Part shown: in pieces, positions 2,244 through 52,479 of the stretch
How positions within the stretch are numbered: position 1 is the first letter of the stretch
How the letters are laid out: each line of letters opens with the position of its first letter
NCBI GenBank assembly: GCA_024138025.1
Contig: JAMXBD010000024.1
Location: 248,001-312,000 of the forward strand
Length of the DNA: 64,000 bases
Direction: 5' to 3'
Origin: Combretum micranthum
Taxonomy: Eukaryota > Streptophyta > Magnoliopsida > Myrtales > Combretaceae
Translations under genes and position numbers: made by a program
Notes under the pieces: generated by a model
The model's database searches: none
Seen by the model: the letters and a program-made list of their open reading frames with translations, nothing else
What the model was told of the DNA's origin: nothing

Positions 2244-2459
2244 CTTTTTCTGGACACCCCAATTCACCCCGTTTTGTGCCTTGAACTTACACCATGTTGC
2301 TCGGACCTTTGGTACTCCTTTTCCATGACTTCGGATGCCCGGATTCCTATCAGATTCTGTACCGAAACTTTTAGAAACCCAAACGACCTTTTATGTAGAA
2401 AATAACCTTAAAAATAGATAGATCTTTTTTATTAGGTAGAAATCGGTATATTATATGTG

Positions 2460-2508
2460 AAATTCCGAGTTAAAATGAGCAAGTTATGGCCATTTTAAGT
2501 TGGAATTT
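2460..2508 (+). other. H1 conserved stem-loop (S1 copy)
   Basis: Arm 1 AAATTCCGAGTTAAAATG (2460-2477), a 13-nt loop, and arm 2 CATTTTAAGTTGGAATTT (2491-2508). Seventeen of 18 positions can pair, one as G-T. The block recurs in all seven S copies about 1.18-1.35 kb before the 3' terminus (S7 counted without its tandem duplication). The other copies are at 6791-6838 (-), 10719-10767, 15358-15404, 35631-35680, 40288-40337 and 47763-47811 (-). Confidence 0.85.
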
Positions 2509-3243
2509 CCCCCTATACGAATTTTGACGAACCTAGTAAAATAGAGTTACAAGTTTAACTAGAACTTCCAAGAAATACTCATTTGGGTATTTTTCTTATT
2601 TAGATGACATGGAGGCCAAATTCCCGTGTCCCAAGGATTTCCTTAACTAGAAGTGTCCACAGGAATGATCGAGTGAGTTTATTTCTTATATATTTGCACT
2701 TATGATTTTGCTTGTAAAATAGTGGTATTAGAATTAAGGAAAAGATAAAATAGAAAATGCTTGTACTTTACATACTTGGTTGAAATTACGATTAAATATA
2801 TCGAGACAGGAATTGTTTATAATGAATACTTGATCTAGTGTAAGAATTATTGTCTGCAAATTCTATAATCACCCGCAAAATATTTAATTATGCCATGAGT
2901 ACTTAATTAAATTTATTCATGCATATCATCGGGTGAGTTCATTGCATTTATTATTATACCTTTGGTAGGACAAAGGCTTACTAAGGAGATTCATAGAGTC
3001 CATAAATTCTATAAAGCGACGAGGCATTGTTCAAATCAGCTAGCGATGAGAAAACATATGAATAAAACATACCTAGCAGCCATGTAGTGGCTCGAAAATA
3101 AACTACAAATAAGTTGGTTTATATATATTTTTTAAAGCAAGGAAGTCATTAAAAAAAGAACTTCCGTGGAACTACGTTGTATGATAGCGGCCTATACAGT
3201 TTGGAACACCTAACCACTGAATGGAGGGGTAAATCCATTTAAA

Positions 3244-3268
3244 CATATGATTCTCGAAAAATCATATG
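3244..3268 (+). other. H2 conserved, covarying stem-loop (S1 copy)
   Basis: CATATGATT (3244-3252), loop CTCGAAA, and AATCATATG (3260-3268) form a perfect 9-bp stem just after the conserved 'TAAATCCATT' box. All S copies have a stem-loop at this place, 538-576 bp from the 3' terminus. The other copies are at 6100-6124 (-), about 11467-11491, 15971-15994, 36323-36347, 41006-41030 and 47049-47065 (-). Confidence 0.85.
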
Positions 3269-3802
3269 TATGTGCATCTTGTATGGTTGCTTAAATAAAC
3301 TTGTCTTGATGATTGAATATCAAGTGTTTATTTGTGGAAATAAGTCTCACTAAGTTAGTAGCTTATACCATCTTAGATATCTTTTGTAGCTCCATACCTT
3401 TGGTTGGAACTAAGAGGTTATTTTACCTAGGTAATGCCTTGAGCCGAGATCTTATGGATAGAAGTACAAGATAGAAGTAGATATGGATTCCAAGAGCAGT
3501 TTCAAAAGTGTAAATCATTTTATGTTAGACTTAATTATCTTTAATAGGGGAATGCCCTTTAATGTTGTAAAGACTCCTTAATAGTTTTATGAACCTTGAT
3601 TTTATTGTTATGATTTAGTTTCTTAATTGCTATTGTGCATAACTGCTTAAATGGAATGATCCAAAGTTTGGTCCACTACGATCGTGAAGGTATGCCTTAC
3701 ACTCGGTATCGAGACTTTCAGGATGACTAAAGTTGTCATACTTAAGCCTCAATATTGAGCCTGGCGGACTGTCGTGTTTAGGATACCTGTTGGGGCGTGA
3801 CA

Positions 3803-3856: not shown

Positions 3857-4479
3857 ATCACAAAGCCGAAAATTGAAATCGGATCCCTAAGAGTCAACTT
3901 AGGTTTACCCTAAGATTAAAAGTGATTAGATCCTGTAATCCCGTGCTTGAAACCCTAGAACAATAAAAACGAGATAACCATAGATTATAGTTTGGAATAA
4001 TGTCTTATAGCTTAAAAAGATCAGATTGAAAATTTTCTCATTTCAAACCCAAATGAGATCAATTTTCGAAAACACTGTCCTAACATGCGAAACAGTAAAA
4101 ATATTTCAATAACGTATCTAAACTCGTAATAATATGATGATTTATAAAATATCATTTTTGTAATTTTATGGCTTCTAAAAACATCATATATAGCTCTTTT
4201 ACGCGTATTTTCATTACTACCAGTATTTTATTTTCCTAGTCTACTGTTCATTACCATTCATTTATCTCTAATTTTTCTTACACCTACCTCTTACATCTCT
4301 TACAATTATCTTTTCCCATAAAACTTTTACTATACTTTTTAATTAACTTCTCTTATACTTTTCTACTAAAATTAATTTTTTTCCTCTCTACCCCTTTTAA
4401 AAAAATGGCTGCAAGCTGCCCCCTCTTTCCCTCTATAATTTACTTTTCTTTTCATTCTTCAATTCATACATTTTTTCCC

Positions 4480-4487
4480 TATAAATA
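4480..4487 (+). promoter_or_regulatory. LTR TATA box of S2
   Basis: TATAAATA followed by a CT-rich stretch, about 620 bp from the LTR start. Equivalent boxes are at 13820-13827 (S4), 33951-33958 (S5), 38630-38637 (S6, TATATAAA) and 8764-8771 on the minus strand (S3). The position suits an LTR promoter driving a long leader. Activity is not shown by the sequence. Confidence 0.6.
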
Positions 4488-5534
4488 CCACCACATCCTC
4501 TTCACGTTTTCACACTTTTTCTTTACCATAAGAATACTCTACTAAACTTAAAAATCCCATCCCTTATTTTCGGAAAATTCTAAAACCCCCTCTTTAGTTT
4601 ATGTTAACAAAACATGAACAACATATATGTTATGATTTCAAACAAAATTCCCATGGGCTTATGCTAGGGAATGAAATCATAGAAATAACATCTTGTTTAT
4701 GTCTTGTTCAACTCTATGTTTGAATTTATATTTATGTTATGTTCCTAATTCTAACATAACTTTCTATATGTTAGTATGTATAAGTAATGTATATTTATTC
4801 TAGAGCCTAAAGCTTCCTAATCTAATTCTTTCTATTTCATGCTTTTATTCCATGCTCTTATTTATTTCATGCTAAATAAAATAAGACTAGTCAAATTTTA
4901 GTCTTACACTTATCTTGAATCAAGTCAAAACAAAAAGGGACTTGTATATCCATAATCTAAGTCCTAGGGAGCCTTGAAAAATAAATCTAAGACTCCCATG
5001 ATTTTTTTTATTTATTTGCTTTGCTTAATTAATGATACTAGTTATATCCAAGTCTCGGGGAGCCTTGCTAAAGTCGAAGACTCTCATAATTATTTTCTTG
5101 CTTTTGTTATTTTATATATGAGACTTGTCCACTTTTAAGTCTTGGGAAGACTTGAGTAAAAATCTAAAACTTCCATAATTTTCTTTTTTTTCTTTTTCGT
5201 AAGCTTTCTTATTGTTTTCTTTTTTTATGGAACTTGTCCATTTCTAAGTTTCGGGAAGTCTTGATATCTTAATATTAAGCTAAGATTTCCATATCTTTAT
5301 TTTCTCTATAATTACTTATTTGAAATTTTCTATCCTTTATTTCTATATAAGCTTATGTCAATAAGTTATATCGTAGTATAATTACTAGATTTAGATGCAT
5401 GCATGGTCATAAAGTGATGTTGTTGTCCTAATTAAAATTTTAAAATGAAAATATATATTATTTCTTATCTCATAAAATGAGACTTATCTTTCAAGAGAGT
5501 TAATTTTCAACTCTTAGAAAAAATTTTCTTAAGG

Positions 5535-5539: not shown

Positions 5540-8500
5540 TGTCATGCCCTAAAGGGTATCCTAAACGTGGCAGTCCACCACATACAGTATTAAAACTTAA
5601 AAATGACTTCTCGAAGTAATGCGAAAGTTTTCAACACCATAGGTAAGGCGTCTATCACAACAATAGGAGACACCGGTAGGATGTATAGTTCGAGATAGTA
5701 AATACAGCATACAAAAATTCTAGATAACCATCTCATTTCAACATTATAAGAACATAATCCTTACATTATCATAGGGGCTTTTCCCCTATAAATCTCCAAA
5801 TAATCATAATATCATCTTAGTCTTTCACACAAGGAAACAATACTAACACCAAAAGATATTAAAGGATATTTAACCTAAGATCTTCAAAAGATTTCTAGAA
5901 GCTTTCCAAAACACAATCCCACTCAAGTATATGTAGTCCTCGGCATGAAAGATATTGGTCCTCATACAACAAAAGTCTATCGGAGTATAAGCATAACTAG
6001 CTTAGTGAGAATATTCCTGAATCAACGTCCTTGTATAAATAATTTCAAACAAGTTATTAAACAAGGATATGAATGCATCAAGCACTTGATCAAGCAATAC
6101 ATATGATCTACCGGAAATCATATGTTTGAATGGATTTACCCCTCCATTTATGGTTAAGTGTTTCAGGCTCTTTAAAACCCATCTTTAAAATCCAACTCAT
6201 GTACTTTATTTCAGGCGCCTACTCGCCCATCTTAAAAGAGTTCTTTCAGGCTCCTAATCGCCTATCTCACAGATTTATGACTCCTGCAAACCCGGCTACT
6301 ATACTCTTGTCCCATCGAGTATAGCAGCTCATGCAATGAAACTAACTACGTGATATGCATGAATCAATTAATATAACTCATAGTATATGATTAGAGTAAT
6401 TTAAAGGTGATCACAGAATTTGCACACACTCCAATAGAATAATAGTAAAACATAAGTTAATTAACAACGATTCATGCCTCAATATGCTTAGCATTCTTTC
6501 AACCAATATTATCATACATAATTCATTTTTATCTTTTCCTACTTCTAGTGTCTCTAGCTACAAGCACAACCAAGTACGAAAAAGGTAGGAAATAAACTCA
6601 CTTAGCTATGAGGATCTATCTTATGGATGAGTCGATCGGTAAATCCACTAATCAAAATAATCCTCAGGGTATGAATACTCCACCTCGGGATTATCTAATC
6701 AAGAAGAATACCCATAATGAGTATTTCTTATTGATTCTATGGTACTTATAAAAAACTATGTTATAAGATCGTTAAAATTCATATAGAAAGTAATTCCAAC
6801 TTGAAATAGCCATAACTTAGTCATTTTAACTCGAAATTGTGCAAATAATATACCGTTTTCTACCTACTTGAAAAGATCTATCCATTTCTAAGATTATTTT
6901 TGTCATAAAAAGCCATTTGGGTTGGAAAATACTACGGTACATAATAGTTACGAATTTATAGTTCACAAAATATGATTTTTTCCAAACTTCTCTTTACTCA
7001 AAAATCTTTGAGCAAAATATATAGATATATATGTATATAGTTGAAAAATCCTTTGAACATATGTAGGCACTGATATTGTATACATGATTTTTGTAGTGTT
7101 GTCTCAATATTGATATTTCATAAACAATTTATTTTTTATGGTTTTAAAAGATAAAACTTTTGAGAATTTCTCCTTTTTGAATTTGTTAGAAGAAAAAAAA
7201 TATATATTTGAGTTGTTATGAGTGAATTTTTTCTATTATAATTTCATTTTCTCCCTTTTCAAAAGTAAATTCATTTTCAAAAATTTTGGTTCTTTAAGTT
7301 ATCTGCTAACTTTATTTCTAGTGATTGAAAATAAGCTTTTCGAAATATCTTTTAAGTTTTTGATGTGGTCAAATATTTGAAGTTGTATTAAATGTATGTT
7401 TTCCTTTCATTTTTATACCCTTTTTCTTCTTTAGAAAATAGATGTACCTTTAAAACTTTACTTTCTTGGCAAATTTTATTTTTCTAAGTTGGTTTTCAAA
7501 ATAGTGAGTTGACTTTATCTTGGTTTGAAAAACTTGTTTTATTCTTAATATTTTTTAAATGGTAGAATAATTCCCTTAGACAAGTTTATAAGAAAAGCTT
7601 TCTGAATAAAGAATTTTTAACATTAGAACTTAACAAAAATTTCATTTTAATTTAGAAAAGAATAACAACATATAAAAATTAAATTAATATGTAATTTTCA
7701 AAGTCTATAATGAACCTATTTAAGTCTTATAAAAGATGTGGTTGAGTTAAAGGCTTTATTTCAAGGCTAAAAATTCTATCTTTTTGGAGTATTTAGTTTT
7801 GATTTATAAAAGAAATGATTTTCTTTCATTTGAAGAAATCTTAGGTACTAATACTTCAAAACTTATGATTAACTTACTTAAGCTTTTAAAAACAACATTT
7901 AGACTTCTTTGTTGAAAACTCCTCTATTGAGAAATCTAGTTCACTTTTCCTTTCTAAGAAAGAATCCGTTTTTATTTTTACTTAAGACAACAACATTATA
8001 ATCATGCATGAATATGATTATGTAGCAATGTAAAAGTAAAGATAATACATAATAAGATAGAAATAAATACTTGTAAGTAAATAAACATAATAAAATAGTC
8101 AAGCATTGGGAACATTAGCTTCATTAAGGTATCCCAATCATGTATTGGGAGCCTTAGCTTCATTAAGACAACCCAAGACTAAGAATAGATTAGTCCCAAA
8201 AGAAAAGAAAAGAAAGAAAATTATTTTCACTTGATTGGACAAGTCTAAGACTAGAAAGACTAGTCTTAATAGATTGCATAATATAAGTAAATAAATAAAT
8301 TGCAAGACATGAAAGTAAATAAATAACAAATGAGCTTATATACTCTAAATAAATAATATATACATAGTATACATAATACTATATAGAAGTTAGATTAGAG
8401 CAAAAATAATAATAACAATAATAATAACAACATAATAAGATAATGTAAAATAGGAACATGAACAAAAACAAAACATAAACATATTGTTGCTTTTTTAACT

Positions 8501-9682: not shown

Positions 9683-12050
9683 AATAGTTGACCAATAACA
9701 CTTTCTCTTAAAATGTTTAAAGTGAAATAATATGAAAAGGTTTTCCAAAAATTTAAATATCAATAATTCTTTGTGATGCAAAATATTTTACGAAAATCTT
9801 ATAAATGTTGACCTTAAAAGGAAATACCCAAGTATGTTTTTCAAAATGAATTTCTCAAATATAAATGTTGATAATTCTTTGTTATATAAAATCTTCTAAA
9901 AATCTTTTTTATAATACATAAACAAACTTTATTATTAAAAATAAGAAATTAGAGCAAGTCATCTACATAAAATTTCTCTCATAATCAAAACTTAGAAACA
10001 TGTTAAAGATGATACTACTTAATGATTTTCTTCACAAACACATAAAGATTCATGTTTTAAAAAATAATTAGCTAAAACAAGTTTAATATGAAAATGAAAT
10101 ATTCATGAACTCAAAATATATATAAAATCATGATTTTCTTTAATTGAGTTTCACATTTGCAAATTCTAAGAATTAAAGATTTGTTCAAGAGTCAAACTCA
10201 AGAAAATTTCAAAAGGAAATACACTTAGAGTTTTATGTCACCAATAAAAAAAATCATGTTTTATGAAATAAATTATTAAATAAAAATTTTGAAAAAATAT
10301 TAGACCTTTGAAATTTCAATATATATATATATATATATATAGAATTATGATTTTTAGTCACAAGTTTACAAAATAGCAAATTTTATCACAAGTCAGGAAA
10401 ATAATTTTTGATAAAACCCAAAATTACTTTCCACAAAAGATTGTTTATAAAGTTTTATTTTGGAACAACATCACTGGGATTATATATATAATATGATTCA
10501 TGTCAATACTAAATGATTTTTCAAAGGTAGAAATATTTATACGTTTGTTATAAAGTATATAAGTGAACTAAAATTTTGGAAAATGAAAATTTGAGGGCTG
10601 GAACTTATAGGTCATATCTGTACTGATCCTTTTTGAAACCCAATTGGCTTTAAATGTTAAAAATAACATAAAAAATAGATAGATTTTTTAGTAGATAGAA
10701 AAGGACTACTAATATTCAAAATTCCGAGTTAAAATGAACAAGTTATGACTGTTTTAAGTTGGAATTTCTCTTAGTACGAATTTTGATGAGACTAACAATA
10801 TAGAACTATAAAGTTTAAGTAAAATATCTATGAAATACCCACTTTGGGTATTTCTTTTGTTTAGGTGATGAGGAGTTCAATGTGCCATTTTTGGAGGATT
10901 ATTACGATTAGGAATTGCACTAATGGATGAGTGGATTTTTCCCTATAATTTTGTTATTTTGGTTGTGTTTGTAAAATAGTGGCACTAGTATACTAAGAAA
11001 AGATAAAAAAAAAAAAAAGGATATGTATGGGGAATTCATGGGTTATTTATGTGATTCTATGCTTCTATGATGAAATGAGAAGCTAAGCATATCGCAACTT
11101 TGAATTGTTTGCTTAAGTGTTTTGCTTACTTACTTATATGATTGCCGAGTGTTTGTGGAAATCGTTTGATCACCCCTAAAGAACCTTAATAAGGTTTGGC
11201 TCAAGAAAATAAAACGTTTATGCATTTAATATTATCGAGTCACATTCAGAAGGCTACTACTCTTATGCGAGTGATAGGATGGATTGGCGAACTCGAATGC
11301 AATCCTACTCCAAGCATGAGGTTTGAAACGTTTGGGAATACGAACTCACAGAAGAGCCGCTATACCAATTGCTGAGGGCGTATGTCCAGGGGATTAGTAG
11401 AGGAGGTCATGGAGAATTGCCACAGCTATTCCTAACCCTTGTTACTGAGGGTGTAAATATGTTCTATATATGGTTTCCGAATAATCATATGTAGTTGTGT
11501 AGTCATGTGGTTGTTGTATAGCATGCGCAGCATACGTTTGAACTTAATAACCTTGTTTGTCCATGATTGTTGGTGCGAATGTTGGGAAATATCTTACTAA
11601 GCATGTTATATCTTACACCCCACGGATTCTTGTTGAAGCAGGTCAAGACATTAAAGAAACCACAGATGGACTTTAAGCTTATCTGGGAGAATTAGGAGCA
11701 TAGGATGAAGTTCAAAATTTTAACCCTCTTTATGAGCAATATATGTTGCATTCATATTTTGGAGATTTCTAGGAAACATTAATATGTTTTGATCCATTTG
11801 AGAAAATTAGCTAGGATATACCCCTAAGAATTGTAATGGACCTTATTAATGTTTTATACTAGGTATTTCTCTTGTCTTGTTACTTTAATTGTTATCGATA
11901 CAAATGGTGTTACTTCAACGTGTTCTCTTGAATGTGATGTACGACTTATGCACGATATAGAAGTCTTTGCATGATTAAAGTAGTCTTTCCTAGGCTTTAA
12001 TAGTGTGTACGGCGAGCTATCACGTTTAGGATATCCATTTGGGGGTTACA
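9683..12050 (+). mobile_element. S2 right part
   Basis: Continues S2 after the S3 insertion. It holds H1 (10719-10767), the 'access' box around 11445-11460 and H2 (about 11467-11491, with a G-T pair), and ends at 12050 in ...GGGGGTTACA. A (TA)n run at 10319-10341 lies inside. No coding potential. Confidence 0.8.
10319..10341. repeat. (TA)n microsatellite
   Basis: About 11 TA units inside S2, flanked by ordinary leader sequence. Confidence 0.9.
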
Positions 12051-13151: not shown

Positions 13152-16100
13152 TGTAAACCCCCAAGTTTTATGTTATCTCTAACCTGAAACCAGAAGTCAA
13201 TCGAAAACCTTACGGTCAACAAAACCCTTATAGGACCTAGCAGTTTAAGTCCAACAATCCCGCACTTCTGACTTGTGTAGAGTAGATGTAAGCTTAGAAT
13301 GTAGAATAGTTTGTAATTATACAAGGATGTTTAAAAATATCAGATTGGTTAGAATTTGATCCATCTTGAGCCCGAACGGATATTAGTTTTGAAAAACGTG
13401 TCATGGGGTCTGGAATATTAAAAATATTCCATTGACGTTGTTACTCGTAAAAATATAAGGTTTTCAAAAATATTAATTTTATAATTTTTCGGTAACTAAA
13501 AATATCAGATATCGCACTTTTACATGTATTTTTCTTACTACCGGTATATTTATGTACAACTCTATACTATTCATACTATCTCTATTTTTTTACTATTTAC
13601 TCTTACACACTAGCATACCTATACCACTAATTTTTTTCATTTCCAATATACTTTTATCACATCTATCTTACATATTATTACTTTTAATACATAAAATTAT
13701 AAAAAAATAAAATCTCTCCCTCTCTTTCACTCATGACCGACGCCCCCTACCCCTCTCTTTCTCTATTTTTCTCAATTTTTAATCTAATTAATTCACTCAA
13801 AATCCTCTCCTCATTTTTCTATAAATACCCTCCTCTTCTTTCATTTCTTTCACACTTCATCCACTCACAAATTTACTACCAAAACTCTCTAAAAATTTTC
13901 TCTCAAAACTCTCTCTCAAATTTCCTCTCTACATACTCTCAAAATCCTCGCAAGTTCTTACCAACACCATCACTTTTCTTCACTACCATTTATCTTTTAG
14001 GTAATAAACCTCTTCATATTACTTCTACCATGTTATGTAACTTTACATGATCATGGTATGAGTTTCCTAAACTTATTGTTATGGAAGCTACACTATGTTC
14101 ATGTATTGTTCTTATTCATGAACATCCATGACTATATTTTTATGTTGTTATTATACTTTGCTTATATTATTGTTGTTATTATACTAACTTCTATTTATAT
14201 ACAACTAAATATATTTATGTATCTATATATATTCTTTAGAGCATATAAGCTCACTTGTTATTTATTTATTTTCATGCTTTGCAATTTATTCACTTATTTC
14301 ATGCTATTTTAAGACTAGTCTTTCTAGTCTTAGACTTGTCCTCATCAAGTCAAAACAATTTTCTTTTCTTTTTAGGGCTAGTCCATTTCTTAGTCCAAGA
14401 GCCTTGATTCAAAGCTAAGACTCTCAATACTTGACTTATATTATCTTGCTTATTATTTTGTTGCTATAATTTTGCTTGTTATTGTTCTTATATTCATGCA
14501 AAATAAAGATTGTTGTCTAAACCGCAAAGTTTGAATTATACTTTTTGCAAAAGAGATTTTTGTCACCAAAGAAGAGTTCTATTGAAATTTAAAGTTTTTA
14601 AATTAAAAGGAATCCATTTTTTTTTTCTCAAAGCCTTAGGAAGAACTCACTATAATTTTGGAAATACCACTATTTTGAAAAGCTTTTTCTAAAACCATAA
14701 TTATAGTAATAATAGAGTCGTTTTCTAAAATTGAAGAAGACAATTATTTGTTACAAAAATATTTTCCTTGAAAACATAATGTAAAGGAAACTCCATAAAA
14801 AGGAAATGTGAGTTTTCAAACCAAGATTTAAAAAGAAAAAAAAAATAATAGTCAAAGGAAATACATAGGAAACTAATAAGAAAGTGACACTAGTGTTAGA
14901 AGTTTCAAAAAGAAAAAATAGAGAAATTCATTTTTATGGAAAAGTCATGAAGGAAATTAGTAAGATAAACATAAAATACTCTTTGAAAACAAAAGAATCA
15001 AAAGCTTCATTTTTAAAGAATTTACAAAAAGGATTTCTTGTAAATTATGATTTTCCAAACTTCTAATTAACATTGTTTTTACTAAAGAAATTTGTTTAGA
15101 CATCAAATACTTGAACATGTACAAAATATGAGCTATAAATCTATAAAAAGGAATTTTTCAACTATATGGAGAACTAAGTATTTATCAAAGTAATTTTTAG
15201 ATGATTTGATGTTTGATACAAATGCCTTCGGGATGGGAAATTTCGGGGTGAATCTGATCGCCACTGTTTTGGAGCTCAAAAGACATTGTTTAATAGAAAT
15301 AACCTTAGAAATGAATAGATCTTTTCGAATAGGTAGAAAACGGTACATAATATGCGCAATTCCGAGTTAAAATGAGCAAGTTATGGCCATTTTAAGTTGA
15401 AATTATCTTCCGTACGAATTTTGACGAACTTAATGACATAGTTTTGTCAAATTTCTATAGAACTATCAAGAAATACTCATTATGTGTATTTTCTTGTTTA
15501 GGTGATTGTGAGGAGGATCTCCTGTATCTAGAAGACTACTTTGACTGAAGACCGGTGAACCCATGGCCAAGCAAGTTTTATTTCCATAAGTTATCTTACT
15601 TGATTGTGCTTGTATTCTAAAAGCACTAGATTTAAGGAAAAGATTAAATGATATGTGTATAATATTGTTTGAATGAATGATAAGAATATTGAGATAAGAA
15701 TTGATTATAATCAATGCTTGATTTAGTTTAGAACTTGATTTGTCTGAAATTCTATAGTCACCTTAAATTGGCAATAATTGTGCTATGAGCCTTTAATTAA
15801 ACTAAAATCATGCATATCATTTGTTAGTCACATTGCATGGGATCACTACCCTTGTGGGGGAAAGGGGTAGTGGTATAATCGTTGGATCTTAATTAAAGCT
15901 TCGGGACGTTTAGTTAGAAGCATATATATTGCCGCCCCTAACCCCGAATAGAAGGCGTAAATCCATTTAACATATGATTACCAAAAATGATATGTCTTGT
16001 ATGCTCATGTGATTGTTGCATTTCACTTGGTTGATTAAATAACTTGTTTGATTATTGCTATTCAAGTATACTTATCTTTGGAAATAATTCTCACTAAGCT

Positions 16101-16536
16101 AGTAGCTTAAACCCTTATAGCTATATGATATAGTTTCCTTACCTTTGGTTGAAGCCACATGGGCCATGTACTCAAGTACACCCACCCACACACCCCCTCC
16201 CCTCTTTTTGTTAAGAAGTTTTTGGATGAATTCCAACACTAATATAGATATAGACTTTTAGGAAAAATTTCTTATATATGATATAGCTTTGTTAGTGTAC
16301 TTTTGGTGGGGGAATACCCTCAAGATCCTTGTAAGACTTTATATTTATGATTTCCATTTCTTAATTGTTACTGTATCTCTTAAGCTTCATATTTCAAAGC
16401 ATGGTCCACTAAAATTATAAGAGCACGCCTTACATTTAATATATAAGCTTTTGGAAATGACTTAGGTTGTCATACTTAAGTTTTAATATTGAATGTGGCG
16501 GACTGTTACGTTTAGAGTACCCCTTGGGCCGTGACA
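13152..16536 (+). mobile_element. S4: complete large solo LTR
   Basis: A 3385-bp unit that starts TGTAAACCCCCAAG and ends CCTTGGGCCGTGACA, flanked by a perfect TSD ACTTT (13147-13151 and 16537-16541). The TATA box is at 13820-13827 with a CT-rich start region downstream, one leader repeat at about 14400, H1 at 15358-15404 and H2 at 15971-15994 (one mismatch). It is the shortest S copy. The open frames inside (13733-14050, 14058-14312) are low-complexity and not genes. Confidence 0.92.
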
Positions 16537-27954: not shown

Positions 27955-29703
27955 ATTGGGTTAAAAAGCAAACACTAAGAACATGAAGCTGAATTTTTCA
28001 AAAATTTGTAAAAATATGATAATAAATTCTATTCAACTTTGGTCGTAACTACCAACATTAGGCAAGCGTACCTATTGAAATAGAATTAAAATATTAGGTC
28101 GTATTCCTTAGAGATTGTTAGCATCTACCTTACTTTCTTATCATCTATTATCTAGCTAAGGAAAATTTAGCAAAAAATAATAAAAGCAGAAGTTATACCA
28201 GGGTTAAGGCTAAGAATGTACATGTTTTCAAGGTAAAGTGTAAGATAAGTTTGTTAATGCAAGAAAAAGCCTTAGAGATTGCTTTACCAACTCTTTATCA
28301 TGTGATTTCTTAATAAACTCATAGAGTTGTTTACTGATATATTTGCACCATTGAATTCACTAGGATAAGTTAAAGCCTTTCTCAAGATTAGTAGTTTTAG
28401 ATCTAGGTTAGACTATTGAAATCTCTTCTCAAACTATTAACAACCTAGATCTACATAAAGCTTAAGAATCCTTTATTTCAAAACCAACCTAATAAATCTA
28501 AAAAACAAGTGGCATAAAGTCTCACCATCCCTCTTTCAAGGAGATTATGAGTAACTTCATTAGCAGCCCATATATATTCAAAAGAATGATCTCCTAATCT
28601 ATTTAGTTGAAATCAGACATGAATCTAAAAGGCACACCATTCATTTAGACCCACAAAAATAAGTTTTAGCTACTAATTACAAATACCTTATCGATATTCA
28701 TTAAAATACTTTGAAATCATAGGAATCAAGTCTTGGATTCACAAACCCTAAGTTAAATGATTATTTCTCCATGGATGTAGTCATTAAGCATACATTCTAA
28801 AAAAATAATATGGATTTAAAGATGAAAATACAAATTAAGCACAAAGTCTTACAAAAATAAATGTTAAGTTTACAATAAATTTACCTAGAAAACTTTGAGA
28901 TCTCTTAGCAAGAAGAAACAGTTCTTTTGCCTAAGAATCCTCTCTCTATTTTATGTTAGAAATATGTTACATATAGTACTAGTACATTATTGGGCATCTG
29001 TGTACGTTTATTTATAGACTACAAGCATAGAAAAACATGAAGATCTTATTTGCTGAAGTGGCAGATTCTTTATAACCGAATCTGTCATTATTCTCACGTG
29101 CAAATCTTGGATGCCAGTTCATGGGGTCACTTTTCGTTGATTAGATTAAGAGCTTGAAGGTTACTCAAATATTAGGGCTTGATCTAATATGTGGCCTTCT
29201 TCTCAAAAAGCTTGACTTCTTGTTTGAATTCAACCATCGGTATCATCAAGTTCATCGAGGCCTTGAATGTTGGCCTTGATCTAAGCTATGCTTTTCTAAA
29301 CAAAGGCATTAATTTTTGCTAGCTTCAATCGCAGGTTGAATCTAGGGCTTGACAGTATGGTATGATTAAAGTTGTATCATGAAGTCTGGGGCTTAATCAC
29401 CTCAATGCAAATCAAGGGTCATATTAAGGGCTCACTTTTGGGGCACGACTAGTCATTTTACCTTTTTTACCTTGCTATTTTGCCCTCGATGGGTCTTTTA
29501 TAGGCCTCAGTTAAGTTTTGTTTTCATAGTTGTTGTTGTTTTGCTCCAATCCAATTCAAGTCACTTCATTTCTTGTTTTCTGATCTTAAGAGTGTAAAAA
29601 CAACATTTGAGCAATAAAAGCACAAAATCCAAAGGAATTTATTAGAAATTGAGGAAACAAAGCTTAAATTTCGATGAATAGGATAGAATAAAACAAAATA
29701 TCA
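27955..29703 (-). mobile_element. T3: Athila-like LTR (probable 3' LTR, minus strand)
   Basis: It ends AAAATATCA at 29703, the minus-strand start of the family. It aligns over its length with T4, T6 and, inverted, with T5. The shared landmarks are 'ggcaagcgtacctattg', 'tttctccatgga' (about 28760-28775), a minus-strand TATA (about 29010) and 'ttgttgttgttttgctcc'. Adjacent bases 29704-29723 read on the minus strand as TTTAAGTATGGGGCAATT, a purine-rich tract placed as a polypurine tract would be next to a 3' LTR. The other end is worn. Its uninterrupted 'atttagacccacaaaaataag' (about 28652) is the paralogous empty site for S7. Confidence 0.75.
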
Positions 29704-33262: not shown

Positions 33263-34533
33263 TATAAATCCCTCAATTTCTAAAGTAAAGTTGGAATATA
33301 CCATAACCCTAGTCAAACCAGAATTTCAAAAATCAACTATGATCAAGATAATCTAGTAGTTTTAACTTTGGCAATCCCGCGCTTGAAACCTAAGAACAAT
33401 AGAAATAAATTAATGGTGGATTATAGTTTGGAATAATATAAGATAGCTTAAAAAGATCAGATTTGTCAAATTCGATTTGTTTTGAACCCGAACGGGATCA
33501 GTTTTTGAGAAACGTGCCCTAATGCTTGGAATAGTAAAAATATTCCGATAACACCAAAGGACTCGTAATTATGCAAGGATTTAAAAAATATTAGTTTTGT
33601 AATTTTTCGATAAGTAAAAATATCATATATAATATATTACGTGTATTTTCTTTACTATCGGTAATTTAATTGTCTAGTCTATTATTCATTATATAATTTT
33701 TACTATTAATTACTATTCACCTATTTCTACTTTTCCTTACAACCTACTTCTTACTACCTATACATATATTTCTTACATTTTTCATTTTCAATACAACTTT
33801 ATATTACTCTCATCTCACATCTTAATTACTTTTCACTACAAAAATACAAAACAAATCAATTCCTCTCCCTTTTTCTCCTCAAGGCTAGCACTACCCCCTC
33901 CTTTCTCTCTTCAATTTATTTTGTTGCATCTAATTTTCACTCTAAAATTCTATAAATACCTCGTCCCTTATTCATTCTTTTCCCACACTTTCTTACCTTA
34001 ACAAAACTCTACCAAATTCTCTCCTCAAAATCTCTCTCCAAATTTTTCTTCTAAAATCTCGTTTCTCTCTGCAAAACTACTACCCACATATTGTAACAAC
34101 TACCTTTCTTCTTCTTCAATAAATACACAACCTTAGATAAAATTTATAATATTTATCCTTCATGTCATATAACTTAATATGACTATAGTGTATGTTTCCT
34201 TAACCTATAAGGTTATGGAAACAATAATATGTTCATGTTTTTTTCTTGTTCATGCCTAAACTCCCATTATATTATTGTTATTATTTTACTATATTATTAT
34301 TGTTCTAATCTAACTTTATATATATTATTATGTATATATATATATATATTTCTTAGAGCCTAAATTGCTCATTAACTTCTCATCAACATGCTCTTATTAT
34401 TATTTTTTTTCTTTTCTTTCTTTTCTTTTCATTTTGGGACTGGTCTCTTCTTAGTCCTAGGAAGCCTTGATGAAACTAATGCTTCCAATACTTGACCGAG
34501 AAGCCTTTATGAAGCTAAGGCTCCCAATACTTC

Positions 34534-34572
<39 letters not shown>

Positions 34573-36911
34573 TTACTTCTTATATCTCTATCTTTCTTTA
34601 CATGAATTTTTCTCATCTTTCTTATAGCTACTTAATCATATTCATGCATGACCATAATGATGTTGTCACAATAAAGATTTCTTCAAATAATAAAAGGAAT
34701 TCATTCTTTTATAAATTGGAACTAAATACTCCATAAAAATATAATTTTTAGCATTAAACTTAAGATTTTAAGCTAACCACATCTTTTATAACACTTAAAT
34801 AGGTTTATCATAGACTTTGAAAATCACTTATTAAGTAAGATTCTACAAGACTTAATTTTTAGTGTTATTATTCTCTTTTCAAAGCTAAAATGAAATTTTT
34901 GCTAAGTTCTATTGTTGATAATTCTTTGTTATGATATCTTTTTTTATAAACTTATCTAAAGGATTATGCCACCACTTGATAAATATTAAGAATAAAACAA
35001 TTTTTTCAAATCAAGATAAAATAAACTCACTATTTTAGAAACCAACATAGAGAAATAAAATTGCTAAGAAAGTAAAGTTTTAAAATGGTAAACTTATTTT
35101 CTAAAGGAGTAGAAGAATATAAAAATGAGGAGAAAACATACATTTAACACAACTCCAAATATAAGACAACACCAGCGACTTAAGAAAAATTTTGAAAACC
35201 TTATTCTTCAATCACTAGAAATAAAATTGATAGATAATAGGACCAAATTTTTGGAAATTAATTTATCTTTGAAGAGTTAAGAAATAAAAAATATAAAAGG
35301 AAAAAACTTATTTATAATAACCCAAAGATTTGTAACTTCTTTCAAATTACTAAAAAAGAAAAATTTCAAAGTCTAATTTTTCAAACCCATAAGACAAGTT
35401 TTTTTGCGAAAAATAATTATTGAGACAATACCAATAGAATCATGCATAAAATATGTTTTTCAGAATTTTTGGGTGAAGAAAAGTTTGGAAAATCATATTT
35501 TTAAAGGCTGAAAATTTCGTAGCTATTTTGTACCGTGATATTTTGGAACCTAAATGGCTTTTTATAACAAAAATAACCTTAAAAATGGATAGATCTTTTT
35601 GAATAGATAAAAAACGACATATAGTATGCGAAATTTTGAGTAAAAATGAGCAACTTATGACCATTTTTAAGTTGGAATTTCCTTCTATCCAAATTTTAAT
35701 GCAAATACTAGAATAAAATTAGAAGATTCAAGTAGAACTTCCACAAAATACTCATTATGGGTATTTCTTTCGTTTAAGTAACGAAGCTTGGGAGGATCTG
35801 TATTCAAAGGACTATTATGAGTAAAGAATTTTGGCAAGGATGGCCGAGTAAGTTTATCTCCTACTTTTATATACTCATTTGTGTTTGTAGCTAGAGGCAC
35901 TAGAAGTAGGAAAAAAAAAGAAAACAAAATATGCATGTTAATATTGGTTGAAAGTATATTAAGTATATCGAGATATGAATTGTTGTGAATTAAATTTTTT
36001 TTACTATTATAATGAGTGTCTGCAAATTCTATAATCACCTTTAAATTACCTTAATCACGTATTAAGAGTTATATGAATTGATTCATGCATACCACGTAGT
36101 AAGTCACATTTCATTTGCTACTAAGCTCCATGGGACAAGATTATAATAGTGGGGTTCACGGGAACCCGCAAGTCTGCAAAGATAAGCGAATAGGAGGCCA
36201 AAAAAACTATTTTAGGATGGAGCAAGTAGGAGCCCGAAATAAACTACATCATCAGATTTCAAAGAAGGGTTTTAAAGAGCTCGAAACACATAACCCCAAA
36301 TGGAGGGGTAAATCCATTCAAGCATATGGTTTTTAGTGGATCATACGTATTACTTGCTCACTTGCTTGATGCATTTCATATGCTTGTTTAATAACTTATT
36401 TGAATTTGTTGATACGAGTACGCTAATTCGAGAATATTCTCACTAAGCCAGTTGAGCTTACACCCCAATAGACTTTTGTTGAAACAGGATCAATATCTCT
36501 TTTGCCCAAGGACTCCATATATCCAGATGGACTTATGATTCAAAAAGCTTTTAGGAGAAATTCTTTTGAAGATCTTAGAATAGATTTCTTTTAAAAACTT
36601 TTGGTTCTAATACTGTTTCTTCTTATGTAAGACTATGGTTATATTATGATCTTTAGAGATTTATCAAAGGGAATGCCCCCACGATGATGTAAAGACCATA
36701 TTCCTATAGTTTTGAAGTTAAATATTTATGTCGATTTCTTGTATGCTATACTTGTTTTTTTAAACTACTCATCCTACAAGTGTCTCCTACTACTGTGATA
36801 GACGCCTTACATATGGTGTCGAAGCTGTCGCATGACTTTGGGAAGTCATTCTTGAGTTTTAATAATGTATGTAGCGGACTGCCATGTTAGAATACCATTT
36901 AGGGCATGACA
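33263..36911 (+). mobile_element. S5: complete large solo LTR
   Basis: A 3649-bp unit that starts TATAAATCCCTCAATTTC (family TGTAAGCCCC...) and ends TTTAGGGCATGACA. The TSD is CATCT at 33258-33262 against CGTCT at 36912-36916, with one difference. The TATA box is at 33951-33958, two 39-bp leader repeats are at 34462 and 34501, a (TA)n tract at 34538-34568, H1 at 35631-35680 and H2 at 36323-36347. No coding domain. Confidence 0.85.
34538..34568. repeat. (TA)n microsatellite
   Basis: About 15 TA units directly after the leader repeats of S5. Confidence 0.9.
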
Positions 36912-37917: not shown

Positions 37918-40900
37918 TGTAAGCCTTCATTCTCTTAGCAACCTAAATTCGGTTTCGAAGATTGGTACCAGAAACCGAACCCTAAAAGAATACTCTAGGA
38001 CTAGCTAGACCTGGAAACTCTAAGTTCAGCAATCCCGAGAACGAAACCCTAGAACAATAGAAATGAGTGAACTCCATAATATAGCCCTAAATAATTTATC
38101 AAAACATGAAAAGATTAGATTTCAAAGCAATTCATTCGTTTAGGACCCGATCGGGATCTGTTCTCGAAAACCGGTCCCTGGGACTCGGAAATAGAAAAAT
38201 AATATATAGGACTCTTTGGAACCGAAATTTAATAAGGAATTAAAAAATATAATTATAATAATTTTTCGAGTTATAAAAATTACAGTTATAGCTTTTTATC
38301 GTATTTTCATTACTACCGGTAATTTAATTGTCTAATCAACTTTTTTATTTCTATCATACTATTCACCAAGTACAACTACTCATACCTTATTCTTACATCC
38401 TTAATACCTATTCTTACAATTTTACATCATTTTTCTTACATTTTCTTTTCCAATACAACTGTTACTACCTAAATTACTTATTAAATTTGAATTTTATTAC
38501 ACAAAACAAATCACATAACACTCTCTCTCCCCACTCTTCTAAAACCGGCGTGATCCCCCTTCCACAAGCCCACAAATTGTTTCATTTTTCTTCATTTTAT
38601 TAATCACACAAAAACCCTAATCGATTTCCTATATAAACTCTCTTTTACCTTTTACTTTTTCATTTTCTCTCATTTCTTACAAATCACAATTTTGGAAAAA
38701 GTTTTCTCTCCTCTCTCTCCCTCTCCTTTGCCGTGAGCTTCCTCTCCCTCACACACACACAATTTTTCTTCAATTTTTTTTTACTCCATACATCTAATAG
38801 GTAATAGATCTACATCTTACCACATTAAAACATGTAATGGCAAGATCATACATGTGTGGTTCCACCAAAAATTCCCATGAGCTTTATGCTAGGGATGTGG
38901 AAACACTAAAGCATGATATTCTTGCCATCAGAATGTGTAGATCTTGTTATTTAAGTTGTTTTATCAGTATTTTGCTATATTATTGTTATATATTGCTATT
39001 ATGGATATTTTGTACATATACTCTTTCATTAAACTCATCTACATATTGTTTATATTGCATTTGCAACCATGACATGAGTAATATAGTAGATCTATTTGTT
39101 TAGAGTATATAAATGCCATAGATATTTGTCTTATATACATAAAAGATATGCAATATGATAATCTTAATGAAAGTGTTGCCAAAGCTCAAGATCTATTTTG
39201 TTTCTATTGAAAAAATAATTTTTGAAATTCGGATCTTGAGACATAATCATTTAGAAAACCTACTTACCAACTCCAAAATGAAGATCTTATATATAAAATG
39301 AAGGGATTAGGTGATAGGTATCATAAAGGAATGATTTTTATAAGTTGAGTTTAGTTTTACTAAGAGAAATTTTCAAAACAAGAAAAGGATTACAAAAGTT
39401 AATTTAGAGCTATGTCTCAATACCAACAAAAACTTAAAAATTCGTAACTAGGGTGAAATGCTAAGTAAACACCTATTTTCCAATCCTAAAACAAGAGTTT
39501 TATTAAATAAATAGGGGCCCTAGGGAGTAGGTTTGGTTAGGACTTAATTTTAGAAAGATTAAATAAGTTTTTCACAAGAAATAATCTTAAAAACAAGTTT
39601 CAAAATTCGGATCTAAAAATGACTCCCATTTAAACACCTATTTCCAAATGTCAAAATGAGGATTTTAATAAAAAAATAGAAGCTTTAGGGAATATATGTA
39701 ATAAAGACCTGATTTTGATAAGAGTAAATGGATTTTATCAAAGTATAAACCTAAAACAAAGGAAAGGTTTCCAAACATGGATCAAGCAATATTTTCATTT
39801 CCTAAAATGGTGTAAAATTTGTCACTAGGAAAAACCCATATTTAAACAACTATTTTCCAACTCTTAAATGAAGAATTTTATTAAGATAATGAAGGTATTA
39901 GATATATAGGTCATCAAGGCTTTATCTTTATAAAAATATGAATGATTTTCAAAGAGATAAAGCTAGTTTTTCTCAACCAAGTGTTCTTGATATTGGTACA
40001 ACGTAAAGTTATTCCAAAAATTCTTTTTAACCAAAAATCATTAAGGATATACATGTAGATAGCTCATATCATGTTATTCATGATAATAACTTGTAGATAT
40101 TGTATGCACATATAATATAATTAGTAGAAATAATGCAAATTTCACAAAACAATTTTGGAAATGCAATTTTTAGCTACTGATCAGATGTGATCCAAGCTTT
40201 CCAAGACTAAAAGTTTTCAAAACTTAAGAGTAACATAATGAATAGATAGATCTTTCAAAGTAGATAGAAATCTATAGCTTATTTGCGAAATTCCGAGTTT
40301 AAATGACCAAGTTGTAGCCGATTTTAAGTTAGAATTTCCATCTACCACGAAAATTACGAACTTAAGAGTTTTTATTTAAGAGGTTGGAATTAGTTATGGT
40401 TTGAAATACTCATTTGGGTATTTCTAAGGAATTCTTGTTTCTGGATTGCTACCATTAGAGACCGGTGTCCATGGTCGAGTGAGTTCACTTTCCTTAAATT
40501 TTATGCTTATGATTGTTTTTGTAATAATAGTGGCATTAGAACTAGGACAAGATACAATTGGAATATGCATGTGAATTTTGCTTGGTTGAAACGATGATAA
40601 GAATATCGAAATGGGGATTGTTATATATATATATATATGTATGATTTAGTATAGAATTAAAGTGCCTGAAATCTCTATGATCACCTATAAATTCATTTAA
40701 ATAATATGCCATGACCATATGACTAAATTGTTCATGCATAACATATGTGAGTCACATTTCATTTGTTATCATACATTTGTGGGAAAAAGGCATTATAGTT
40801 AGGCAATGGGTAGGCCTGAAAACTAGGCTAATGGCGCCGGGTCACCTGAAATAAAATGGAAGTAGAGTAGGCACTTGAATCAACTACATAAACAGTGAGT

Positions 40901-41572
40901 GGCTGAGTACCTAAATCAACCACTATATAAATGAGGAAAATTGAAATATATGATCGTATGGGCCTGAAACACCTAACCTCGATTGGAGGGCGTAAATCCA
41001 TTCAACATAGGACTCTCGAAAAGTCTTATGTATCATATGTTTACATGCTTGTGCATTTTCATATGATTGTCTGATATAATTTGTTTGCCCCCTTGATGAT
41101 GGAGTGTGTAATTTTGGAAGTGAAACGCACTAAGCTAGTGTAGCTTATACCCCCTATAGCTTCTTTTTTTATGTAGTTCCCGTACGTATGGTTGCATCCC
41201 CCGACTTGGCCAAATCAGGTAAATGTGAAGTTAGGAGTCTTCCGTTAGCAATTTATGATTAACTTTGCATAGGCTTTCGTAGGAAACCTTAAACGCTCGG
41301 GTTGTTATTAAAAGCTAATATATGGACTTTTTGTTTAATAGGGGAATGTCCATTAGTCCCTTGTAACTGATCCTGAGATATCTATGGTTTATGTTTTTAT
41401 GCTTACTCTATCAAGTTGAACTATCTATCTCTAATTGCATATGTATTCTATTGTCGTAACGGAATGCCTTGCATCTAATACAAGACTTTTGGAATGACTA
41501 TGGTAGTGATTCTTAAGTCTCGTTTAGTATGCGCCGAACTGTTACGTATAGGGCACCCTTTGGGGCGTGACA
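37918..41572 (+). mobile_element. S6: complete large solo LTR nested in T5
   Basis: A 3655-bp unit that starts TGTAAGCCTTCATTC and ends CCCTTTGGGGCGTGACA. The TSD is GTAAT (37913-37917) against GTAAC (41573-41577), with one difference. The TATA box is at 38630-38637, H1 at 40288-40337 and H2 at 41006-41030. The leader lacks the 39-bp repeats of S1, S3 and S5. It has instead four spaced copies of an 'ttttccaa..(c)aaaatgaagattttatta' block at about 39262, 39478, 39643 and 39848, as in S7. S6 and S7 thus form a subfamily. Confidence 0.9.
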
Positions 41573-46239: not shown

Positions 46240-46370
46240 TGTCACACCCCGAAGGGTACCCTAAATGTGGCAGTCCACCGTACACAATATTAATGCCTAA
46301 GAATGACCACCTCAGTCACGTGAAGGCTTCCATACTATGTACAAGGCGTCTAAAACATAAAGGAGATACA

Positions 46371-46928
46371 TCAGAATGATACATTTTATGTTGATACAAT
46401 TGAGTAACAATGTAAAGGAAATACAATTTACTATACTTCAGATACAAATCACTATACTTCAAAATACAATCATTCAACTTCGATTACATTCATCCACAGA
46501 CTTCCTTACATAAACTATTACAAGACAAATCATAAACTAGCTAATAACTTCAAACATTCGTATTCTTTGCTAAAGTCCTGGAGTCGTTCCCGGCTCCACT
46601 CAATTCAGTCCCCACTTTGCATTCTTGAGATAACCTGTTCATTTAAACATCAGAATGATACATTTTATGTTGATACAATTGAGTAACAATGTAAAAGAAA
46701 TACAATTTACTATACTTCAGATACAAATCACTATACTTCAAAATACAATTATTCAACTTCGATTACATTCATCCACAGACTTCCCTACATAAACTATTAC
46801 AAGACAAATCATAAACTAGCTAATAACTTCAAACATTCGTATTCTTTGCCAAAGTCCTAGAGTCGTTCCCGGCTCCACTCAATTCAGTCCCCACTTTGCA
46901 TTCTTGAGATAACCTGTTCATTTAAACA
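46371..46928. repeat. 279-bp tandem duplication in S7
   Basis: Copy 1 is 46371-46649 and copy 2 is 46650-46928. Only about five substitutions are visible, so the duplication is far younger than the differences between S copies. It lies between the sense 3' end and H2. Confidence 0.95.
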
Positions 46929-48379
46929 ACTATAGGGGTATAAGCTACACTAGCTTAGTGAGAATTCCCTTAATTCTGTACCATAACAAACAAGTTATAA
47001 TCATTCATATGCTATGCATGAACAAACACGTAAGCAAGCAATTATGCATGGGTATCCGGAACCCACACACAGAATGGATTTACGCCCTCCATATCTTGGG
47101 TTAGGAATGGTATTGAGTCTACACGACCGCATCTAGTCCCCAAGCCCTCGGCTCTTAGCACTCGACTCGGCTAGGCTCATCCAAGAATGCATCCACATGC
47201 GCCTTAGTACCCTTAAATGAGCTCTGGCACTGGGTTCGTTATCCAAACGAATCATCCAGGGACCATACCGATCGACCTGCGTAGGAGTAGCATGCTACCA
47301 AATGCAATATGTCCAATGCGATGCATGACCAATTTAAGTTTTTCTTAGGTCACAAATATTTATACATTCTTTAGAATGACCAACCAATATCACACATATA
47401 ACAGAAATAATATGAACGGTGTAGTTATTCAATCAAATCGTGGTTTCGATATGCTTTAGTATTCTTTGGCATACATTCATCACAGTCTCATCATATCTCC
47501 CATCCCCATTCATATCGATTTTTATCTTGTTCCTATAATTCTAATGCAACTAACTGCAAGCACAATCACGGTAACAAAACAAGGAGAAAACTCACTCGGC
47601 AATTGGATCACCGGTCTTCTAGTAATAATCATCCGGTGGTAGGGAATCGTCGATCTCGGGATCTCCTAAAAAGGAAGAAATACTCTAATAAGTATTTCAT
47701 CACTTAACTAATCCAAACTATCTCATTCATACTATCAAATTTGCAATTCGCGTCCTAAGAGGAAATTCCAACTTAAAACGGCCATAACTTGGTCATTTTA
47801 ACTCGGAATCTCGCAAATTATATATCGATTTCTATCTACTTTAAAAGATCTATCTATTTCTAATATTATTTTCAAGTTTTGAAAATGTTGAAGCTTCGAA
47901 AAGGTCGGATCAGATTAGGGCAGCAACAATTTCAATTTCCGAAAATAGCTTTGTAAATGGTTGTAATGTTCCTACTATATAAATTAGCTATACATGCAAT
48001 ATGAGTGATTTCCTAACATGAATGGCATGAATTTAGTTTCATGTATGTATGATCCTGATGATTTTTGGTAAGAGAAAATTTTGGAACTCTTTATTTTGCA
48101 AGACTTCAACTATAACTACTTTTTGAAAAATCTAGTTTTCTAACTTTGATCATTTCCATTTGTTTTAGATTTATTACTTAAGAAAATATAATTATTTTTG
48201 TTAAAATTGAGTCTTCATTATATATATTACTTATGACCTTCATTTCTACATAAAAATTTCCATTTTACACTTTGTAAATATGTTTTCCAATATGATTTAC
48301 TCAAAATTCTGAATTTTATAAAATCCACTTTTTGAATGATTCATTTGGGGAAAACTTGTTTAAAACATTAAAATTTAAG

Positions 48380-50710: not shown

Positions 50711-51416
50711 GATATATTTAGAAATCTTATGAAATTACGAGTCTAACGGTACTATTGGTATATTTTTGATATCTCGAGCCCCGGGACACGCTTTTCGAAG
50801 TCTGTATCCGAACGGGTTCGAAATAGGTCAAAAATTTACCAATCTGATATTTTTAAGCAAACTCATATTACTATGAGCTATTCTACATATTTAAACTACA
50901 TCCCGGCCTCTAGGGTTAGGGGCGCTAGATTGCCGGACTTACGCTATTGTATTCCGGTTAGGGTTTCCGGGTGATTTTCCGGTTTAGACCTTTGCCAATT
51001 TGGAAACTGATATTTATGTTTATACAACATATTTAATTTGAGAAATTTATTTTAAATTTTATTTTTGTTAGTATTTAATATCTCTTAATGTTTTCGGAAT
51101 TCTTGAATTGAGTTATATTTTCGAAAGTCAATTGTTATTTGCTTTTTAATAATTTGTTTTTGAGCTTTATATTACCTGATTTTATAAGTCGGAGTTAAAT
51201 ATGGAAATTTTTGTACGTCGTGGTTTTGAATTTGAAGACCACTGTGTTCTTATTTTATTTTTAAAGATTATCATTTTCTCAAGATTAAGAAGTTTCCGAA
51301 TTCGTTCGTGTTTTTGGACTAGTTGAAATTCGGTTTTAATTTGGAGTGATTTTTAGGGTTTATTTTCGAAGTTCATCTTGAAATTATTTATTGAAATTTT
51401 CCGGGCTTACATAGAC

Positions 51417-52479
51417 ACATAAAAATAAGTTTTAGCTACTAATTATAAATACCTAGTCAATATTCTTTAAAATACTTTGAAATCATATGAATCAGGTCTT
51501 GGATTCATAAACCCTAAGTTAAATGATTATTTCTCCATGGATACATTCATTAAGCACAAATTCTAAAGAAATAATATGGAATTAAAGATGAAAATACAAA
51601 TTAAGTATAGAGTCCTGCAAAAACATACGTCAGGTTTACAATGAATTTACCCATAAAACTTCAAACTTAGCAAGAAGAAATAGTTCTTTTGCCCAAGAAC
51701 TCTCTCTCTATTTTGTGTTAGAAATATGATACATATGGTACTGGTACATTATTGGGCATCTGTGCACATTTATTTACATGCTACAAGCATAGAAAATCAT
51801 GAAGATTCTATTTGCTGATGTAGCAAATTCTTTATAATTGAATTCGTCCTTATTCTCACACACACGTCTTGGATGCTAGCTCATTGGGTCAGTTTTCGCG
51901 AGTTAGATCAAGTGCTCAAAGGTTGCTTAAATGTTAGGGCTTGATCTAATCTATGTCCTTCTTCTCAAAACGCTCAACTTCTTATCTAGATTTAACCGCA
52001 AGTGTCATCGAGTTTGTCAAGGGCTCGAATGTTAGCCTTGATCTAAGTTGTGCTTTTCTAAACAAAGGCGTGATTTTTGACCAGCTTCAATTACGAGTTG
52101 AATCTAGGGCTTGATACTATAGTGTGATTGAAGTTGTATCATGAATTCAAGGGCTTGATCAACTCAATGCAAATCAGTGCAAATTGAGGGTCATATCGAG
52201 GGCTTGACTTTGGGGCATGACTAGTTGTTTTGCCTTCTTTTGCCTTGTTGTTTTGCTATCGATGGGTCTTTTGTAGGCCTTTGATAAGTTCTATTTTACA
52301 TTATTGTTGTTGTTTTGCTCAAATCTAGTTTAAGTCACTTCATTTCTTGTTTTTCTGATTTTAAGAGTTAAAAAATAACATTTGAGCAATAAAAGCACAA
52401 AATCTATAGGAATTTATCATAAATGGAGCAAATCAAGCCTAAATTCCTATGAATGGAATAGAATAAAATAGACTTATCA
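51417..52479 (-). mobile_element. T6 LTR, second fragment
   Basis: It continues T6 directly after the S7 target duplication ('acataaaaataagttttagctac', equal to T3 at about 28659) and ends GACTTATCA at 52479. It lies between two plus-strand pol fragments, so it is not their own LTR. Confidence 0.85.

Follow-up and report, generated by a model that had tools for sequence, protein, structure and literature searches.

A conserved stem-loop in the long terminal repeats of an abundant plant retrotransposon, a candidate cis-acting RNA signal

To our knowledge, little is known of the RNA signals that act in cis in plant LTR retrotransposons with giant LTRs. Hairpins in the retroviral R region shape poly(A) site use or first strand transfer. 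Among plant LTR retrotransposons, a cis-acting RNA dimerisation signal has been proposed for BARE of barley, which belongs to the Copia superfamily, as does Ty1. In yeast Ty1, two hairpins with complementary apical motifs are reported with experimental proof, and compensatory changes show that pairing matters there (PMC5454406). A study of retroviral LTRs describes the LTRs of plant Metaviridae as left unmodelled owing to their great variation in length (PMC3601003).

Here we describe H2, a stem-loop shared by seven related segments (S1 to S7) of the window, a 64,000-nucleotide stretch of the Combretum micranthum genome, and by many further copies in the same genome. H2 is probably an RNA stem-loop that acts in cis, is under selection and lies within the LTR portion that is transcribed.

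Long terminal repeats and the position of H2

The S copies correspond to the 3' part of an LTR of about 3.9–4.1 kb in an abundant plant retrotransposon (Table 1), as seen when the segments were extended by means of twenty 10-kb genomic stretches around matches to the S1 query. Inspection of 16 LTR copies gave defined ends of the TG...CA type, TGTAAACCCCTAG at the 5' end and GGGGCGTGACA at the 3' end, each with variants and several of them mutated. Target-site duplications of 5 bp flank L023 (AAAAG), L016 (ATATA) and L018 (ATTAG), the three copies scored by eye. Polypurine tract (PPT)-like sequences, also recognized by eye, precede L019 and L027 (AAGGGGGGTAGG and AAGAGGGGTAGA), and the sense strand is therefore the + strand of S; a similar tract precedes L009, whose upstream LTR end, the sole such end inspected, has no recognisable primer-binding site. 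An open frame upstream of the L019 LTR encodes a zinc knuckle (E 1.7e-6), while seven other pieces of L019 and L027 gave no match above the curated cut-off. The regions upstream of the LTR, L019 1–2434 and L027 1–1860, have decayed pieces in common and contain no long open pol frame, the zinc-knuckle frame being present in L019 only; the internal region is decayed, no RT scored in it, and no intact element was found among the loci inspected. We take the element to be most likely Ty3/Gypsy, a superfamily assignment made from the end motifs.

L020, L021 and L024, and likewise L013 and L014, have the same flanks on different contigs, and could be uncollapsed haplotypes or segmental duplications. 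Profile coordinates place a minus-strand LTR copy at L025 1593–2113 and 5685–5779 that is apparently interrupted by another member of the family lying on the plus strand. Within the window, positions 1–1527 match a further part of the S1 LTR, whose 5' end precedes the window, and the approximately 830 bp at 1527–2353 are absent from relatives and are probably an insertion into the LTR. The segment 3803–5539 resembles the 5' part of another LTR copy, with the D9 block at 3937 and CTATAAATACC at 4479–4489 as landmarks, and is cut by the inverted copy at 5540. The tandem duplication of S7 (46368–46925) has units that are 98% identical. A separate repeat family is represented by 28646–29693 and 51412–52468, which are 84–88% identical in three blocks (D3, D6 and D8).

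Table 1. Positions in the window of the LTR copies and of the hairpins H1 and H2
Feature	Position	Strand	Remarks
S1	2354–3802	+	LTR 3' part ending GGGGCGTGACA; LTR about 3.9 kb
CCTAACCACTG of S1	3209–3219	+	Upstream of H1
H1 of S1	3220–3239	+	AATGGA/TCCATT around GGGGTAAA; conserved hairpin immediately upstream of H2
H2 of S1	3243–3269	+	10 pairs, 7-nt loop
S2	5540–6945	-	LTR 3' part
H1-H2 of S2	6095–6158	-	H2 arms 6099–6125
S3	10617–12050	+	LTR 3' part
H1-H2 of S3	11431–11497	+	H2 11466–11492, all paired, two G-T; H1 pairs poorly
S4	15224–16536	+	LTR 3' part
H1-H2 of S4	15937–15999	+	H2 15970–15995, single G-G mismatch
S5	33373–36911	+	Most of LTR, D9 block to 3' end
H1-H2 of S5	36289–36352	+	H2 36322–36348, single A-C mismatch
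S6	40217–41572	+	LTR 3' part
H1-H2 of S6	40972–41035	+	H2 41005–41031, GACT/AGTC arms, one G-T
S7	46240–47923	-	LTR 3' part with 279-bp tandem duplication
H1-H2 of S7	47039–47105	-	H2 47044–47070, arms GTGTGTGGGT/ACCCATGCAT

The initial annotation had placed a short stem-loop in every S copy, and the hairpin is indeed present at that site in all seven, with midpoints 538–576 bp from the 3' terminus (measured in S7 by omitting one 279-bp repeat unit). In S1 the arms CATATGATT (3244–3252) and AATCATATG (3260–3268) enclose the loop CTCGAAA (3253–3259), and A3243-T3269 forms the tenth pair. The arms given for S6 (CATAGGACT/AGTCTTATG) are exactly those found, and the G-T pair reported for S2 is an inner T-G pair. 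The S7 arms had been described as TGGGT/ACCCA; these are present, but are merely the core of the ten-pair helix GTGTGTGGGT/ACCCATGCAT, which includes three G-T pairs. Nor is S4 the lone exception to full pairing, as S5 too has one mismatch, at the third pair; thus all 10 pairs form in five window copies and 9 of 10 in S4 and S5. The loop is 6 nt long in S4 and 7 nt in the other window copies. Arm sequences differ among lineages: GATT/AATC has become GACT/AGTC in the S6 group, ATGATT/AATCAT has become ATAGTT/AACTAT at L025:9213–9276 (together with two outer mismatches), and S7 has four double changes. Ten-pair stems with a 7-nt loop and at least nine standard pairs occur at 134 places in 13 LTRs, 7–14 in each, in a count that includes overlapping registers; such geometry is common in the AT-rich LTR, and a hairpin in a single copy is therefore uninformative. 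What is out of the ordinary is the retention of one hairpin at one site with altered arms.

Conservation along an alignment of 13 LTR sequences (S5 and 12 fetched LTRs) is highest, among 30-bp windows, in one that begins within H1 and extends into the 5' arm of H2 (0.967). Consensus folds were computed with RNAalifold in 60-nt windows at steps of 10 on both strands, and among the 788 folds ranked by energy the H1-H2 window on the sense strand is first, at -15.6 kcal/mol (mean -1.2, SD 2.1). When applied to 34 hand-picked copies, RNAalifold predicts H2 unprompted, with a pairing of the CC tract upstream of H1 in place of H1 itself. A covariance model of H1-H2 run over the window and L009–L028 returned 35 strong matches, every one already known, and weak matches that lie mostly on the opposite strand of known sites. 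No Rfam family matches the window at the gathering threshold, and a search of 36250–36911 at E values up to 5 gave one weak match, at 36753–36851, away from H2. A second conserved inverted repeat, at window positions 2460–2508 (AAATTCCGAGTTAAAATG ... CATTTTAAGTTGGAATTT), has the second-best consensus fold. This fold, near LTR position 2741, was rejected, as 35 rows and 18 column pairs gave no helix-wide covariation support; its outermost pair alone reaches p 0.007 (27 of 31 cells paired), and the next 0.153.

The support for H1 is weaker than that for H2: across the 95 copies described below the p values are 0.033 for pairing and 0.36 for double changes, and in the untargeted copies 0.024 and 0.013 respectively. 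The tract upstream of H1 resembles CCTAACCCCG in most aligned copies and could possibly pair with GGGGT of the H1 loop as a candidate pseudoknot. This pairing was not upheld: over its five pairs 89.9% of cells remain paired, yet covariation is not above that of shuffles.

By our own reading of the alignment, a TATA box (CTATAAATA) lies near LTR position 695–770 in 10 of 13 sequences, the box being absent at this position from L009, L027 and L028; in L016 it is about 2.8 kb upstream of H2. Transcription would start just after the TATA box, and H2 would therefore fall within the R-U5 leader of the genomic RNA, on which selection would then act in active lineages. The likeliest role of H2, which we put forward tentatively, is to let Gag recognise this RNA, whether for packaging or for dimerisation. 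A kissing-loop dimerisation signal would require a self-complementary loop, and this version of the role was rejected because the loop shows no conserved self-complementarity. Of 12 untargeted loops, 9 contain a palindrome of at least 4 nt (mean of shuffles 0.27, p 0.0005), as do 3 of 19, 2 of 19 and 10 of 36 loops of the targeted subfamilies; a full 7-nt loop is present in 86 of the 95 copies, and loop positions 2 and 5 show no association (p 0.82).

Our next guess, competing with the packaging role only and a less likely one, is that H2 would lie close to where R ends and influence the choice of poly(A) site or first strand transfer. An AATAAA-like motif about 70–90 nt downstream of H2 in L016 (GAAATAAATCTCACTAAGC) and S1 (GAAATAAGTCTCACTAAG), within a block that belongs to the conserved windows of the LTR, is in keeping with this suggestion, as is the tie between residual conservation in long R regions and stem-loops described in the retroviral study (PMC3601003). 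Against it, AATAAA is not universal among the copies, and S6 has GGAAGTGAAACGCACTAAG at this site.

Pairing and change in the H2 arms among genomic copies

The genome (1.86 Gb in 5442 contigs) was searched with a 301-base query around H2 of S1 and with queries from S5 and S6 taken downstream of H2, which gave 3902, 6801 and 4535 first-look candidates respectively, and 40 of each were scored. Outside the window, 21 of 39 scored places were used for the S1 query, which contained H2, and 20 of 39 and 39 of 39 for the downstream queries. The resulting 95 rows comprise 21 S1-like, 20 S35-like and 39 S40-like copies, the latter two groups having been located by sequence downstream of H2, and 15 untargeted copies, namely the seven window copies and eight caught along in fetched stretches. 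The sample thus covers few lineages, with the S3, S4 and S7 subfamilies represented by the window copies and a few neighbours. All rows were excised by means of a sequence profile built from the window copies, H2 included, and strongly diverged stems may therefore be missed.

L088, a further place from the S1 query that was cut beside H2, gave no row, and L001–L005, L007 and L008 were excluded as the same copies in the window or the 10-kb loci. L025_2113m, a partial match above the E cut of 1e-6 that was present in an initial listing of 57, is by its coordinates the downstream remainder of the interrupted copy L025_5779m. The set retains truncated copies, two of them without any remaining pair, and same-site copies (L013/L014 and L020/L021/L024) were kept in tree-aware tests, the second of L013/L014 being omitted from the 14-copy tests of arm swapping and of G-T against A-C. 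The null model, a method of our own, re-places the numbers and kinds of parsimony changes of each column on a tree built without H2.

The helix as a whole is paired well beyond this null. In the 95 copies 93.7% of H2 cells are paired, against a null mean of 65.9% and maximum of 90.5% (0 of 2000 simulations), and 82 cells are canonical with both sides changed, against 15.6 (0 of 2000); control helices slid along the alignment have 21–59% of cells paired. The 15 untargeted copies behave similarly, with 92.0% of cells paired against 72.7% (0 of 1000) and 12 double-changed cells against 5.5 (p 0.018), and in 14 of them pairing within a copy is better than pairing after arms are exchanged between copies (p 0.0008, from 200000 permutations that ignore relatedness). 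The modal states of all three targeted subfamilies form all 10 pairs. Smaller samples gave comparable results: of 34 copies hand-picked for diversity, 95% of cells are paired and 6 of 10 H2 pairs have changes on both sides, with 23 both-side-changed cells over 11 pairs against 5.9 in shuffles (0 of 500), although the number of pairs with such changes is reached in 29 of 500 shuffles, which ignore relatedness. In a first test of 76 copies, 3 of 11 pairs singly reached p ≤0.05 (0.010, 0.050 and 0 of 300).

The proposal that the arms have changed while pairing was kept is thus borne out helix-wide, above a phylogeny-aware null, but not in every respect. Without the S40-like copies the pairing excess persists (0 of 1000, the same as for the full set), whereas the excess of double changes is lost (p 0.25, and 0.38 when S6 is also omitted). 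Covariation of individual pairs in a larger alignment, which the initial annotation had proposed as a check, did not reach significance: an R-scape-like, tree-aware scan of all pairs in the 95 copies, in our own implementation with an APC-corrected G statistic against tree simulations, found no significant pair, the best H2 pairs having E values of 3.4 and 9.5, and equally high scores are reached by non-pair columns that set the same subfamilies apart. Within subfamilies, no pairing excess was detected in the S1-like copies alone (p 0.50, with little power as the null is already at 96%) or the S35-like alone (p 0.19). The S40-like copies alone show some excess (p 0.022), a point against our reading and one not predicted by neutral decay alone. 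Internal branches kept or restored 13 pairs and broke 8, and terminal branches 43 and 47, with no difference between them (p 0.33); the kept double changes that parsimony assigns to one branch number four, all terminal.

That a few lineages came by chance to differ in both arms, their descendants then being counted repeatedly, would fit with the failure of any single pair in the all-pairs test, with the dependence of the double-change excess on the S40-like clade and with the likeness of internal and terminal branches. Such a founder effect seems improbable to us, as the null preserves the tree and the helix-wide excess persists both without the S40-like copies and in the untargeted set. G-T cells outnumber A-C cells, which favours the sense RNA: the counts are 16 and 6 for the 14 untargeted copies (p 0.052) and 86 and 27 for all copies, although branch changes to the two kinds, 29 and 21 on terminal and 6 and 4 on internal branches, show no clear difference. 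A palindrome kept at the DNA level with no role in RNA, whether to form a cruciform or to bind a protein at a dyad, might be read into the S1 arms, whose inverted repeat is perfect and has CATATG at its core, and into the - strand of the H1-H2 site, which folds nearly as well as the sense strand (third of 788, -12.2 kcal/mol). This is a little less probable still, as two subfamilies have G-T among their modal pairs and the arm letters differ in S6, S7 and L025:9213–9276, which a sequence-specific site would forbid. Least probable of all is an origin without selection, in which the synthesis of DNA or cDNA switches template from one imperfect arm to the other, so that the arms come to match again and covariation is imitated. 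Such re-matching of quasi-palindromes is known and retroelements copy themselves via cDNA, but it predicts perfect Watson–Crick arms, yet G-T is modal in subfamilies, and the S1-like and S35-like copies are without excess.

Comparison with known structured elements

Selection on an RNA stem-loop is the reading that we prefer. Arms that change together between lineages suggest that the element needs the hairpin shape in its RNA, and the fact that the hairpin is retained between lineages but often broken on terminal branches suggests a step in the RNA phase of the element. More doubtfully, H1 (perhaps with the CC-tract pseudoknot) and H2 could make up a putative lineage-wide domain in the R-U5 leader, approximately 3.3 kb long, of plant Ty3/Gypsy elements with giant LTRs, a signal for recognition of genomic RNA that would also recruit Gag for non-autonomous derivatives.

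A conserved hairpin whose arms change together offers a small, testable target for how giant-LTR elements mark their RNA, and a large, mostly dead family can be treated as an archive of the selection that acted on lineages formerly live. In the literature searched, mostly open-access, a covarying stem-loop was nowhere reported for an LTR of a plant Gypsy element.

Among known systems, retrozymes are likewise structured RNAs in plant non-autonomous retrotransposons, but they are reported to carry hammerhead ribozymes (PMC4918200), whereas the window has no Rfam family at the gathering threshold. The packaging and dimerisation domain of the LTR retrotransposon Ty1 likewise has hairpins close to the 5' end of the element's RNA (PMC5454406); it differs in its experimental proof and in its two hairpins with complementary apical motifs, the H2 loop being not consistently self-complementary. 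The stem-loops of the retroviral LTR R region likewise have conserved hairpin arms in the transcribed LTR (PMC3601003), and the present case differs from them in covering a plant LTR of about 4 kb and in including a test of covariation.
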